A stretch of DNA of 64,000 nt from Edaphobacter sp. (GTDB lineage Bacteria > Acidobacteriota > Terriglobia > Terriglobales > Acidobacteriaceae). The DNA lies in contig JAOAPB010000101.1 of assembly GCA_025462645.1 (NCBI GenBank), positions 62,001 through 126,000 of the forward strand, written 5' to 3'. The notes beneath the pieces are model-generated. The model was not told where the DNA came from, searched no databases, and worked only from the letters and a program-made list of their open reading frames with translations. Positions within the stretch are counted from its first letter, which is position 1. Every line of letters starts with the position of its first letter. The position numbers and the translations under genes were made by a program. Positions 6,507-27,238 of the stretch are shown here, piece after piece.

Positions 6507-8384
6507 CTAGCGCTTCTGGGACCAGCTTATCTCGGTTCCGGCCATGATAGTGCGGCCCTGCAAGGGGACTCCGGGGATCTCCTGGTAGTTGGTGTTGCTG
6601 AGATTGAGGAGTCGGAGGTAGGGGCGGAGATGGCCGGTGTTGCGAGCGAGGGAGAGGTTCCAGAGGGGATAGGGGGTCTGGGTGGTCTTCTGGAGGATGG
6701 CGAGCTGGTTCTGGATGGTCAACTGATGGAGTTTTGCTGGTAGCGGACCACTCCACGCAAAGAGGGCGCTTTGGGCGGCGTAGTTGAAGGTGTACTCGGA
6801 GATGAGGCCGGGAGGTGGGGAGGTGGCCTGGACGGCGGTGTAGTTGAGCTGGAGCTGCTGGCTGGCAGGGAGGCGGAGGCGGAGGGAGGCTTCGGCTCCG
6901 GTGTAGGCGAAGTTGGCTACGTTGGTGGCCTGCCAGGGCTTGGTGAGGTCGTATTTGGAGTAGTCGATTCCATTCTTCTGGCGGAGGCGAAAGGCGGTGG
7001 CGGTGAGGGTGAAGGGGGCGCGGGAGGGGGTCCAGTCGGCTCCGGCCTCGTAGCTCCAGGAGGACTCGGGCTTGAGGCTTGGGTTGCCGATGGTGGAGGG
7101 GTCGGAGTAGTAGAGGTCGAGGTAGGTGGGGAGGCGGAAGCCGTGGCCGATGGAGGCTCGGGCACGGAGGGTGGAGGTAATGGTGAGGGCCGCGGCGAGA
7201 TTGGGGGAGAAAACGGATTCTCCTCCGGAGAAGACCTGTTCGCGGGCTCCGAGGGAGAGGGAGAGTCGGCCTAAGGAGCGGAGGGAGAGGTTGGCGTAGC
7301 CGGCTGCCTGGTTGCGGGCGTGCTTGCCGAGGTTGGTGCTGACGATGGAGTCGCCGTTGGCCTCGAGGCCGTAGGAGAGAGTGGTGTTGGAGCCGATGGG
7401 GTCGGCTCGACGGAGGGCGGACTGCCAGGCGGTGGTGACGTGGTTGTTGCGGTAGTAGTTGGGGCGATCGAGGAGGAGGACGAAGAGGTCGGTGTGGCGG
7501 CGGTAGGCGTAGCTGGCTGCGGTGCGCGCTCCGAGCTGCTGCTGGATGGAGGCGAACCATCCCTTGGTGCGCTCCCAGGAGTCGTAGGGGCCGTAGAACT
7601 GGTTGGCTCCGTAGGGGCGGTCGCTGGTGGCGAGGAGGATGTCGGTCGTGTATTGGGGGTCGCCGGGCTTCAGGTTAAACCAGGTCTCGGAGGCCAGGGC
7701 GTTGCTGGAGTAGTTGCGGTCGGGGATGAAGCCGTTGGAGGTGTCGCGGCTGGCCGTGAGCTGCTCGGAGAAGGGTTTGGAGGCGTAGTCGGCGCGGAGA
7801 TGCTGCTCGAGGGAGCCGTAGTTTCCGGCGCCGAGCCTGGCGGCGAGGCTGATGGTGCTGGGGCGTTCGGTGATGAGGTTGACGGCTCCGCCGATGGCGT
7901 CGGAGCCGTAGAAGGTGGAGCCGGAGCCGTGTAGGACTTCGATGCGGGAGATGGCTTCGAGAGGGACAGGGATATCGAGGTTGAGATGGCCGGTCTCGGG
8001 ATCGTTGATGCGGAGGCCGTTGAGGAGGATGAGGGACTGCTCGAAGGTGGTGCCGCGGATGGAGAGGTCGGCCTGGACGCCGTTTGGGCTGCGGGCCTGG
8101 AGGTTGAGGGAGGGGTCCTGGCGGAGGTAGTCGGTGAAGTTGTTGAAGAGGAGGGGCTGGTCGCGGGTGTCGAGGACGGTGACGGAGCGGTTGCTCTCGG
8201 AGAGGGGGATGGGCTCGATGGTGGTGGAGACGGAGACTGTCTGTTGGATGGGGGTTGGCTTTGACGCGGGTGACTGGGTGCCTTGCTGGGCAAAGGCGCT
8301 GGCGGCGCAGAGGCAGAGGGACAGGAGCCAGTGGCTCTTCGGCAATGTCTTGCTCTGTCGTTCTTGTGGGTTGTGGTGCGTCAT
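6507..8384 (-). CDS. TonB-dependent outer-membrane receptor (BtuB-like)
   Basis: 625 residues. The N-terminus has a signal peptide (LSLCLCAASAFA) after about 18 polar residues. A plug domain follows (about 65-175), with VTVLDTRDQPLLFNNFTDYLRQ, SIRGTTFEQSLILLNG and the typical IEVLHGSGSTFYGSDAIGGAVNLIT. The rest is a beta-barrel ending in an aromatic-poor SQKR tail. The closest recognisable group is the BtuB/colicin-I type that imports cobalamin or siderophores using TonB energy, but I cannot assign the ligand. No cobalamin riboswitch was recognised upstream. The gene is divergent from a MarR regulator, which may control it. Confidence 0.85.
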   Translation of the reverse strand: MTHHNPQERQSKTLPKSHWLLSLCLCAASAFAQQGTQSPASKPTPIQQTVSVSTTIEPIPLSESNRSVTVLDTRDQPLLFNNFTDYLRQDPSLNLQARSPNGVQADLSIRGTTFEQSLILLNGLRINDPETGHLNLDIPVPLEAISRIEVLHGSGSTFYGSDAIGGAVNLITERPSTISLAARLGAGNYGSLEQHLRADYASKPFSEQLTASRDTSNGFIPDRNYSSNALASETWFNLKPGDPQYTTDILLATSDRPYGANQFYGPYDSWERTKGWFASIQQQLGARTAASYAYRRHTDLFVLLLDRPNYYRNNHVTTAWQSALRRADPIGSNTTLSYGLEANGDSIVSTNLGKHARNQAAGYANLSLRSLGRLSLSLGAREQVFSGGESVFSPNLAAALTITSTLRARASIGHGFRLPTYLDLYYSDPSTIGNPSLKPESSWSYEAGADWTPSRAPFTLTATAFRLRQKNGIDYSKYDLTKPWQATNVANFAYTGAEASLRLRLPASQQLQLNYTAVQATSPPPGLISEYTFNYAAQSALFAWSGPLPAKLHQLTIQNQLAILQKTTQTPYPLWNLSLARNTGHLRPYLRLLNLSNTNYQEIPGVPLQGRTIMAGTEISWSQKR

Positions 8385-22664: not shown

Positions 22665-24008
22665 ATGGCTGAGGGTGGTTGTACAGAGTCGGCAAGAGCG
22701 GCGGCGGGGATTGCGTTTGAATCGCGAAACTTCCGTTTGTATCAGTCCGCACGATTGATGGTCATTTTGGGGGCGGAAGCGCAGTCGGTTGCGGTTGCGT
22801 GGCAGGTGTATCAGATCACCCACTCGGCTCTGGACCTGGGGCTCACGGGGCTGGCGTTGTTTATGCCGGGGTTATTTCTGATGCTGGCGGCGGGCCATGC
22901 GGCGGATCGGTACGACCGAAGGAAGATCATCCTAGCGTGCTATGGGCTACAGGCGGTTTGTACAGGAGTGCTGCTGTGGCTGTCGATGAGTACGACGGCG
23001 CTGCGAGTGGGGCGGATATGGCCGGTCTATGCGGTACTGGTGGGGATTGGGATGGGCAGGGCCTTTAGCGGGCCCGCGGCGAGTGCGATGCTGCCGAGCC
23101 TGGTTCCGAAGGACCACTTCGTGAATGCGGTGACGTGGGGCGCGACGATCTACCAGATTGCGAATATGTCGGGGCCTGCGGTGGGTGGACTGTTGTTTAC
23201 CCTGCCGCTGGTGGGAGCGATGGCACGCTGGAACGGGGCGGCGATCGTGTATGCGTTCACGCTGGTGATGCTGATGGGCTTTCTGGTGCTTGTGGGGATG
23301 ATCCGGTTGCCGCAGGTCCCGGTGGCGAAGAAGGGCTTCAGCGCGAGAACGATACTGGCCGGTCTCGAGTATGTGTGGCGGACGAAGCTGCTGCTGGGAT
23401 CGATCTCGCTGGACCTTTTTGCGGTGATGCTGGGTGGAGCGGTGGCGCTGCTGCCGATCTTTGCCACGGAGATTCTTCATGCCGGTCCGCGAGGGCTGGG
23501 GCTGCTGCGGGCGATGCCTTCGGTGGGTGCGCTGGTGGTCTCGCTGACGATGCTGGTGAGGCCGATCAAGCGGCGTGCCGGAAAGGTGATGCTGACCTGT
23601 GTGGGGATCTTCGGTGCGGCTACGGTGGTCTTTGGGTTGTCGAAGAGCATGTGGGTGAGCCTGGTGGCGTTGCTGGTGGTGGGTGCGAGCGATATGGTGA
23701 GTGTCGTGGTGCGGTCGAGTATTCTGCAGCTGGCGACGCCGCCGGAGATGCGCGGGCGAGTGAGCGCGGTGAACTGGCTGTTCATCGGGGCTTCGAATGA
23801 GTTTGGAGAGTTTGAGAGTGGGTTGACGGCTAGCTGGTGGGGAGCGGTGCGGTCGGTTGTCGTGGGAGGGATTGGGTCTTTGGTGGTGACGGCGATGGCT
23901 GCGGGGCTGTTCCCGGAGCTGCGAGGGGCGGATGCTTTGACGGCGGAGTCGCTGAGAGAGTCGGGGCGGGAGTTGAGTGTAGTAGAGCCAGGGATCAGAC
24001 AGTCCTGA
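22665..24008 (+). CDS. MFS exporter (EntS-like), 447 aa
   Basis: About twelve hydrophobic segments. After the first helices comes the MFS signature GHAADRYDRRKIILACYG (about 84-101). The overall pattern (FRLYQSARLMVILGAEAQSV, WQVYQITHSALDLGLTGLA, LVPKDHFVNAVTW) matches the enterobactin-exporter/bacillibactin-type group of drug or siderophore exporters. The gene starts 36 bases after the TolC-like gene, in the same direction, so the two are probably co-transcribed. The substrate is not determinable. Confidence 0.84.
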   Translation: MAEGGCTESARAAAGIAFESRNFRLYQSARLMVILGAEAQSVAVAWQVYQITHSALDLGLTGLALFMPGLFLMLAAGHAADRYDRRKIILACYGLQAVCTGVLLWLSMSTTALRVGRIWPVYAVLVGIGMGRAFSGPAASAMLPSLVPKDHFVNAVTWGATIYQIANMSGPAVGGLLFTLPLVGAMARWNGAAIVYAFTLVMLMGFLVLVGMIRLPQVPVAKKGFSARTILAGLEYVWRTKLLLGSISLDLFAVMLGGAVALLPIFATEILHAGPRGLGLLRAMPSVGALVVSLTMLVRPIKRRAGKVMLTCVGIFGAATVVFGLSKSMWVSLVALLVVGASDMVSVVVRSSILQLATPPEMRGRVSAVNWLFIGASNEFGEFESGLTASWWGAVRSVVVGGIGSLVVTAMAAGLFPELRGADALTAESLRESGRELSVVEPGIRQS

Positions 24009-25147: not shown

Positions 25148-27238
25148 TTAGTGTTTGACGACTGTGATGGTGAGGGTGCTGGGGTACTGGGTGGAGTGGT
25201 GGATCTGGGTGTGGGCGACTACGCCGGTGGTCTCGTCGTAGTTGTTGCCGCCGGTGTTGAGGTTGCGGTCGAAGCGGGGGAAGTTTGATCCGGCTACTTC
25301 GATGCGAATGCTGTGGCCGGCGGCGAAGAGGTTGCTAGTGACCATGGGCGAGAGGGTGACCTTGTAGACCTTGTCCTTCTCCATCCATACGGTGTGGTCG
25401 TCGCCATCACGATAGCGCAGGCGCTGGATGGTCTCGTCGAGGTTGTAGGCTGTGCCGTCGGGGAGGACGTCGATGACTTTGACGGTGACGTCGGTGTCCT
25501 TTACGTCGGAGGAGACGTAGAGGGTGGCGGTGATGGGGCCGGAGACCTCGGTGTCTTCCTTGAAGGGCTCAGAGGTATAGACGAGGATGTCGGGGCGCTC
25601 TTCCATCTTGCGCTGGTCGAGAGCACCGCCCATGCCGGGGATGGTGTTGGCGGCGCAGCAGACGTTGCCGCCGTAGCTGGGGGTGGGATGCATGGGATCG
25701 TAGGTGAAGAGGTCGGGAAGATCGGCTTTCAGGGATGTGAGGGTGCGGGTCGTGGCTGGAGGAGAAGCAGGTCTCTCCGCTACGGCGGCAAAGTGCGCCG
25801 CCTCCGGTCGAGATGACACTTCTTTCTTATGGACTGATTTACCGGCTGAAGGAGGGCCGAAGAGGAGTACGCCGTCGCCGTGGAGGGTGTTGGCGTGGCC
25901 GCCGCTGGTGAGGGTGAGGGTGACGGGCTTCGCGCCCTCCGGCGGCCAGGACTTGGAGTGCTGCCACTTGTTGCTGCCCATGGTGAAGTAGGTGACCTTG
26001 GCCTGCTTCTCGAGGAAACCGTTGTCCTCTCCCTTGAGGAAGTGATCGAACCATGCGTAGGTGAGGGCGTCGTAGTCGAGGCGGGCATCGCCCATGCTGC
26101 GTTCGCCGACTACCGTGTTCTCCGTCGCGCGCTTGTACTGGCAGTGAAGGGTTGGGGCGATGACGGCATACTGCTCGTTGGCGGCTTCGCCTTTGGCGTG
26201 CTCGCGGACGAAGTTATAGGCGGCGAGGTTGGGGCCAGTGGAGACGTCGTACCAGGTCATGAACCAGAAGCCGGGGACGTTGATGGGCATGGTGTCGGAC
26301 TGCCAGATGCCGCCCTTGCGCCAGGCCGGATCGTTCGGAGTGCGTTCGATCATGGCTCCGCCGGTGGTGTTGTCCATCTTGTCGGAGTAGATGCCCTTGG
26401 GACCGTCTACGTTTGAGACGATCTCCTGCTCGGGGAGGTGCTCGAAGGCTTTGGCCCAGTCGACGGGGGGCATGGCGGGGGCGAGGTCGAACATCTTCGA
26501 GGCCTTGATGAGGTCGGCCTGGGTGGTGCCTTTGGGGAAGGTGGGGCGGACCTGATTCTGCTCGCCATAGAGCCAGTCTATGAAGAGCATCTGAACGGCT
26601 CCGCCGCGGTACCAGTTGCCCTGCTCGTTGTAGGGGCCGACCTTGCCGACGCCGGCGCCGAAGCTCTGCGGGATGATGGTGGTGAGGGCCTTGTTGCCGA
26701 GGGATGCGGCGGCGAGCTGCCACTCGGCGGTGGAGGAGCAGCCGATGAGGCCGATCTTGCCGGAGGACCAGGGCTGGGTCGCCATCCAGGTGAACTGGTC
26801 GTCGGCGTCGGTGAGGGGCGCGCCGAGGATGTCGTAGTTGCCCTCGGAGAAGAAGTGGCCGCGCTCGTTCATCTCGACGATGGTGTAGCCGCGTTTGACG
26901 GCGTCGAGCTCGGTGGACATGTCGCGGTAGGTGCCGAGCTTTACGTCCCAGAAGTTGAAGTTGTAGGGGGTGCGGGAGAAGATGATGGGGTACTTCTTGC
27001 TGGAGTCGTTGGAGTCTTTGGGGCGGTAGATGTCGGCGGCCATGCGGACGCCGTCGCGCATGGGGACCATGACCTTGCGGTCGATGATGGCGATGTCTTC
27101 GAGCTGCTTCTCGATGGACTCGCGCTTTTCGATGAGGGCCTTGCGCTCCTCAGGCGTGAGGTTCGGCTGGAGGCGTTGTGCGAGGGTTGGGATGGCGAGA
27201 GCGCAGAGGAGTGCAAAGGCGACGGGACAAGGGCGCAT
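25148..27238 (-). CDS. Exported CocE/NonD family hydrolase (X-Pro dipeptidyl-peptidase-like)
   Basis: 696 residues. Signal peptide [20 protein letters not shown], then an alpha/beta hydrolase core ([28 protein letters not shown]). The nucleophile elbow has Ser168 in [11 protein letters not shown], where the usual GxSYxG is GCSSTA. A C-terminal jelly-roll domain carries [13 protein letters not shown] and [16 protein letters not shown]. The family cleaves esters or amides (cocaine esterase, glutaryl acylase, X-Pro peptidase). A segment of about 35 residues near 475-510 is encoded by a palindromic repeat (25769-25819) and looks inserted in frame. Substrate unknown. Confidence 0.83.
25769..25819. 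repeat. Imperfect palindrome inserted in frame in the hydrolase gene
   Basis: Perfect inner arms GGCGGC (25784-25789) / GCCGCC (25797-25802), extended outward by GGTCTCTCCG and CCGGTCGAGATGAC, which are near reverse complements. It encodes a low-complexity, charged segment (about [20 protein letters not shown]) that interrupts an otherwise normal hydrolase. I have seen this CATCTCGACCGGAGG-type sequence as a dispersed element in Acidobacteria; that recollection is not checked. Confidence 0.5.

Follow-up and report, generated by a model that had tools for sequence, protein, structure and literature searches.

A dispersed palindromic repeat inserted in frame in a CocE-type hydrolase gene of Edaphobacter, and the orientation of its copies along the local GC skew

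Results and Discussion

A lengthened linker in a CocE-type hydrolase

The window, a 64-kb stretch of an Edaphobacter sp. draft genome (G000) in which every position equals the position on contig C70 minus 62000, carries on its minus strand an uninterrupted open reading frame of 696 residues (25148 to 27238). We assigned this gene to the CocE/X-Pro dipeptidyl-peptidase type of hydrolases from the reading frame itself, its Pfam domains PF02129 (Peptidase_S15) and PF08530 (PepX_C), and its nearest solved relatives, the cocaine esterases being the closest structures by sequence match. The closest named orthologues belong to Acidobacteriaceae bacteria, Granulicella and Edaphobacter. Aligning the orthologues from the conserved HGDG motif to the YDP motif delimits an inter-domain linker of 56 residues (25706 to 25873, minus strand), which is 16 residues long in 71 of 80 named orthologues and 17 to 47 residues long in the other nine.

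The initial annotation had proposed an in-frame insertion between 25739 and 25850, in an otherwise normal gene. Its location holds, as the core of the repeat described below (25767 to 25820) falls inside that interval, the frame runs through it unbroken and the two Pfam domains flank it on both sides. Homologues lack the insert: the repeat tag, exact in the window copy, was absent at up to 2 mismatches from the aligned coding sequences of all 80 orthologues, and the segment is likewise absent from the CocE homologues of congeners. Yet the site is a lengthened linker in close relatives as well, eight of the nearest orthologues having 22 to 47 residues there, with no repeat tag. Because the linker around the repeat is too divergent in these nearest orthologues, neither an exact empty site nor a target duplication was definable from them.

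An AlphaFold2 model of the protein, obtained with 39 orthologues as input, has a mean pLDDT of 73.4. Residues 465 to 503 fall below 50, with strands predicted at 455 to 459 and 508 to 513 on either side, and given these low values the insert probably sits in a disordered inter-domain loop.

A repeat family with covarying stems

Taken by itself, the window copy is within chance as a palindrome. The self-complementarity of the 51-bp imperfect palindrome first noted here is matched by 1008 of 3000 segments of 51 nt drawn at random from the window; the 112-nt stretch from 25739 to 25850 folds as DNA no better than its shuffles (z = -0.08), and the core folds as RNA slightly better (z = -1.29; 16 of 200 shuffles equal or better). 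It is the genome-wide family that carries the case. The 16-base tag occurs 48 times in G000 at up to 2 mismatches, against 6 matches for the reversed control, and a covariance model built from 26 copies gave at least 45 matches at E < 0.01, a lower bound since 150 of 4590 first-look candidates were scored. Two covariance-model matches at E values of 0.04 and 0.08 were left out, as were tag matches lacking the full element, such as one in a helicase-like open reading frame (L004). Contigs C70, with the window, and C26 hold three of the 45 copies each, and every other tag match within the 64-kb window has at least 3 mismatches.

In the CocE gene, the covariance model matches 25767 to 25820 on the minus strand (G000:C70:87767-87820) with 75.1 bits, a core made of a TGTC tag, outer stem arms, an inner hairpin and a closing arm. 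The RNA fold of this core places the inner hairpin at 25784 to 25802 (minus strand), with a 7-bp stem formed by 25796 to 25802 and 25784 to 25790 and a 5-nt loop. Flank conservation in column profiles of 37 copies from the same genome extends the full repeat to a probable 25755 to 25830 (minus strand), its ends being approximate. An element is therefore present, as first annotated, but its size is not 51 bp: the core measures 54 bp and the repeat with its conserved flanks about 76 bp. The segment further has 69-nt BLAST relatives elsewhere in G000, at 88 to 93% identity.

Could the linker instead have grown by ordinary lineage-specific expansion of low-complexity sequence, with a coincidental likeness to the repeat? 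The eight lengthened, tag-free linkers of the nearest orthologues are what such growth would produce, but a 75-bit match to a model that finds 45 matches in the genome, the BLAST relatives and the seven other genes that hold the same repeat (see below) make this explanation extremely improbable.

The repeat combines a (C/T)GTC tag with a covarying outer stem that encloses a variable inner hairpin, and measures 54 to 62 nt, or 42 nt in a short form. Among the 37 profiled copies, the base 5' of GTC is C in 27, T in 9 and A in 1, the G of GTC is present in 36, the tail reads C(C/T)GCTTCTC in most, and the 20 nt 5' of the tag are G-poor. The outer stem comprises 8 pairs with internal loops between them; its first A is paired in 11 of 26 copies (10 A-T, 1 G-T), its second position is T-A in 25 of 26, and one pair varies between T-A (15/26) and C-G (10/26). 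The inner hairpin occupies the loop region, which retains about 12 nt even in the 42-nt forms. There were 24 doubly changed stem cells, where shuffling predicts 7.9 and none of 500 shuffles reached the observed number; in this comparison, kinship among copies can beat the shuffles without any structure. Pairs with a double change and extra pair types showed no excess over shuffles, of which 253 and 331 in 500, respectively, reached the observed values.

In-frame copies in housekeeping genes

Eight of the 45 copies in G000 lie inside genes, the coding sequence to either side of each copy sharing a single frame, and a second gene caller returned the same eight. Besides the CocE gene, the hosts encode UvrA, a B12-type ribonucleotide reductase, GlmS, AsnRS, MetRS, PolX and an abhydrolase. 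PDB matches back the identities of UvrA, GlmS, MetRS and PolX, whereas those of the reductase, AsnRS and abhydrolase are putative assignments from sequence. All eight copies are in frame and in sense orientation, with the tag 5', and they are read in two frames, one used in UvrA, the reductase, GlmS and the abhydrolase and the other, of the (V/L)SxRPx type, in CocE, AsnRS, MetRS and PolX. Over the 45 copies, 108 of 135 frames are stop-free on the tag strand and 80 of 135 on the opposite strand. Two of the hosts carry additional repeat-derived or palindromic stretches: in MetRS (L023) we observed VILSEAKNPRISP, from a related GTCATTCTGAGCG repeat, and in AsnRS (L020) GAPSFAPSAKGG, from an unrelated GGTGCCCCATCC palindrome.

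In three relatives we examined 66 of 75 exact-tag copies (G003), 31 of 57 (G001) and 60 of 89 (G060), of which 2, 0 and 1 were intragenic. The G060 copy (L467, near position 7287), within a 769-residue open reading frame, is the sole antisense in-frame copy found.

G000 is a draft of 136 contigs, 96.39% complete and with 5.29% contamination. It holds second copies of the UvrA, MetRS and reductase genes, at about 68 to 86% identity, on contigs C60, C26 and C111, which may be contamination; AsnRS, PolX, the abhydrolase and GlmS have a single close match each, GlmS with one distant match in addition. Since the draft is contaminated and contains these second copies, some of the 45 repeat copies may come from another strain. 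The diverged copies themselves point to a mixture of related strains in the draft.

From these results it is very probable that the CocE segment is a copy of a short palindromic repeat of the Acidobacteriaceae that is dispersed and non-autonomous, REP-like and nearest to the CGTC class discussed below, and that this copy was inserted in the linker and is tolerated as a disordered loop. Copies presumably spread by transposition. A copy would enter the linker that joins the catalytic domain of the hydrolase to its C-terminal domain; with the tag strand usually stop-free, a net insertion that keeps the frame would be read as about 20 to 25 additional residues, which would be translated into a disordered loop that the enzyme tolerates, while gene-breaking insertions would presumably be purged by selection.

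The same sites in congeners

We compared 70 homologue sequences from 10 congeners with the G000 hosts. Repeat DNA is absent at the aligned site in 9 of 11 UvrA, 10 of 10 abhydrolase, 10 of 11 MetRS and 8 of 10 PolX homologues, and these four inserts are therefore not ancestral to the genus. DNA of the same or a related tag repeat occupies the same site in UvrA of G018 and G014, MetRS and AsnRS of G024, and PolX of G001 and G014, and GlmS of G018 has a repeat-like stretch at the insert site. The reductase insert is not recent, given that repeat DNA is present in that linker in 7 of 9 congeners. The differing repeat families found at one site in the reductase and in AsnRS argue for repeated events, and like repeats at one site possibly reflect shared ancestry. 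The reductase linker (L244, L257 to L262) is hypervariable, its repeat families differing between species. Tags within the 70 homologue reading frames are 19 sense and 0 antisense, counts that are nonindependent and for which positions within the frames were partly checked.

Selection for a function in place, such as mRNA stability or protein tuning, rather than mere tolerance, would account for same-place inserts across species in UvrA, MetRS, PolX, the reductase and AsnRS, and would suit hosts several of which are DNA-repair or tRNA-charging genes, as in other bacteria according to the consulted portion of Di Nocera, De Gregorio and Rocco (2013, PMC3733652). However, most congeners lack the insert at several of these sites, the peptides vary with the frame read and the family of repeat, and the loop that holds the CocE insert is modeled with low confidence, so that we hold such selection to be improbable.

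Distribution and the search for a mobilizer

Of 60 genomes sampled from the genus, 35 contain the exact tag, with up to 89 copies and 0 control matches. In a phylum-wide sample of 199 genomes it occurred in 13, all of them among the 20 that belong to the same family (one control match).

Matches to the Y1-transposase domain PF01797 lie at 63 places in 23 of 31 genus genomes. At the 30 of these places that we examined there was no real copy of the repeat; two tag-like matches with 2 mismatches, neither of them repeat-like, compare with one in the reversed control. Repeat copy number and PF01797 did not correlate across the 31 genomes (Spearman 0.12, p = 0.52), and five genomes have the repeat with no PF01797 match, one of the five being just 73% complete. 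A Y1 transposase as mobilizer is thus unsupported both as a neighbor (30 of 63 places) and as a correlate. The only PF01797 match in G000 (L089) is cut by the end of contig C87; close to it lie another fragment of the same kind and a repeat of the GGGTGCCCCA type.

Relation to known repeat families

Repeats of the CGTC class, which includes RPE-4 and RPE-6 of Rickettsia, are described in the consulted portion of Di Nocera et al. (2013, PMC3733652) as having a CGTC, TGTC or CCTC terminal tag, an 8- to 9-bp stem that opens with complementary A-T pairs, a 4- to 5-nt loop and a mostly CCA unpaired tail; intragenic units occur, head-to-head dimers predominate, and the class is reported there from five phyla, Acidobacteria not being among those named in that portion. 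The repeat described here resembles the class in its CGTC/TGTC tag outside the stem, in being a dispersed palindrome for which, as for the class in that portion of text, no dedicated transposase was found, and in its in-frame intragenic copies, UvrA and tRNA synthetase genes included. It differs in its length of 54 to 62 nt (42 nt in the short form), in a variable inner hairpin where the class has its 4- to 5-nt loop, and in a C(C/T)GC rather than a CCA tail. By its sequence features it appears nearest to the CGTC class, with the loop and the tail as two class features that it lacks.

The initial annotation had likened the segment to the palindromic elements of Rickettsia. The comparison is apt as a likeness of mode rather than as a claim of family membership: in both cases palindromic repeats lie dispersed and in frame in unrelated protein genes and are, here presumably, tolerated by the proteins. 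Such elements, RPE-1 and others, were reportedly described by Ogata in 2000 and 2002. In the accessible parts of the sources they are given as 105 to 146 or about 150 bp, and one RPE-bearing enzyme was demonstrated to be translated and active (via PMC10969869 and PMC2229807). The present repeat differs from them in size and host lineage, and apparently in sequence family.

Inverted pairs are known for REP dimers. Like the GTAG REPs and REPINs associated with RAYT (TnpA_REP), this repeat is a short palindrome, and in relatives some copies form inverted pairs about 150 to 200 bp apart; in contrast to those families, it has no GTAG tag and no real copy beside the 30 examined Y1-transposase loci. 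Close pairs in opposite orientation are few among the listed copies (2 in G003, 4 in G060, 3 in G064 and 0 in G001), the two of G003 being tag-inward or tag-outward. At G003 loci L384 and L407, two copies in inverted orientation, separated by about 200 bp, have matching inner flanks, resembling REP doublets.

Our literature search on repeats of Acidobacteria, in-frame palindromes and strand bias, with most subscription papers outside it, found no description of this repeat family among the entries listed. Granulicella aggregans is named in a repeat-count table in the part of RepRanger (2025, PMC12306157) that we consulted. The family indicates that soil Acidobacteriota, too, have in-frame repeat inserts in housekeeping enzymes, in addition to intracellular Rickettsia and the other groups on record. 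It also offers naturally occurring insertion sites in enzymes that have been studied well.

Orientation relative to genes and to local GC skew

Inside genes, 10 copies are sense and 1 is antisense, compared with 62 and 49 between co-directional genes (Fisher p = 0.026), a sense bias that is suggestive only and that arises in part because tag strands are more often stop-free. A first gene caller, trained on the longest open reading frames, gave sense/antisense counts between co-directional genes of 17/5 in G000, 20/18 in G003 and 8/11 in G001. A caller trained on the repeat-bearing genes and their homologues (66 sense, 6 antisense) was rejected, as it called 14 window genes only and missed plus-strand genes, among them that at 22665 to 24008. 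The caller that we adopted is blind to C versus G at third positions and gave 43 sense and 36 antisense copies between co-directional genes and 11 and 0 inside; one of the 11 (L373) adjoins a doubtful start and was removed, as was a copy near a start (G003 L408) that an earlier caller had called intragenic. A fourth genome then added 0 sense and 1 antisense copy inside genes and 19 and 13 between them.

The orientation of the copies follows the local GC skew. The host gene lies in a strongly skewed domain (1 to 28000 in the window), with values of +0.10 to +0.36 in 2-kb steps of the skew profile; beyond 28 kb the skew is close to zero. In G000, 44 of 45 copies have their tag on the strand that is locally richer in C, as do 61 of 66 in G003, 27 of 31 in G001 and 50 of 60 in G060, or 182 of 202 pooled (p = 7e-34 assuming independence, which neighboring copies violate). 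Among pairs of neighbors 0.6 to 60 kb apart, G003 has 37 of 44 co-oriented, G001 20 of 26 and G060 44 of 57, and the tendency is weaker in G064 (27 of 42, from the listed copy positions); of 2000 shuffles, 0, 5, 0 and 96, respectively, were as high. Along the G001 stretch L418, the copies switch from the plus to the minus strand at the point where the sign of the skew reverses.

At third positions of the coding strand, the skew is +0.61 in a plus-strand MFS-like gene and -0.55 in the adjoining minus-strand CocE gene, and it is therefore a property of the region, not of transcription. All eight G000 hosts have values of -0.52 to -0.69. Among the 70 homologues, the 14 with a tag at up to 1 mismatch are all at or below -0.47, and the 56 others average -0.38 (p = 0.034).

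The bias of the tag toward the C-rich strand suggests strand-specific insertion. Insertion into single-stranded DNA, as is known for IS608 and ISDra2 in the consulted part of PMC6006769, would explain the strand pattern, as would a preference for G-poor targets, which are commoner on the C-rich strand and need no link to replication. The G-poor 20 nt 5' of the tag in the 37 profiled copies and a skew sign that flips repeatedly within a single contig, a pattern other than that of two simple replication arms, make such a preference quite possible, though by itself it leaves the strong skew at repeat loci unexplained (on one G003 contig, mean absolute skew of 0.18 at 25 repeat loci versus 0.064 for 20 samples of 10 kb taken at even spacing, a rough comparison between loci that differ in length). 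As for single-strand insertion, we tentatively propose that the repeats may enter one strand only of strongly skewed domains, and that a single-strand-specific enzyme, not a flanking RAYT, could spread CGTC-type repeats. In-frame protein inserts would then be a by-product, expected chiefly in genes that have the target strand as their coding strand, and the association of the repeats with islands of strand asymmetry would stem from the same process or from a shared domain history. For CGTC-type repeats no dedicated transposase is reported in the portion of Di Nocera et al. (2013, PMC3733652) cited above, and an orientation that follows the skew makes single-strand insertion testable.

Origin-like skew switches from minus to plus, several per contig, were also seen and were set aside, as inversions likewise give alternating signs. 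In evenly spaced samples of G023 the skew was mixed as well. The skew islands, which reach 0.36 in the window and occur also in relatives at L389, L418 and L380, do not depend on gene direction; they have abrupt edges and unskewed stretches between them, and the repeats sit in them and match their sign. Across species, the abhydrolase homologues (L247 to L256) range in third-position skew from -0.64 to +0.55, so the skew domains are not tied to genes.
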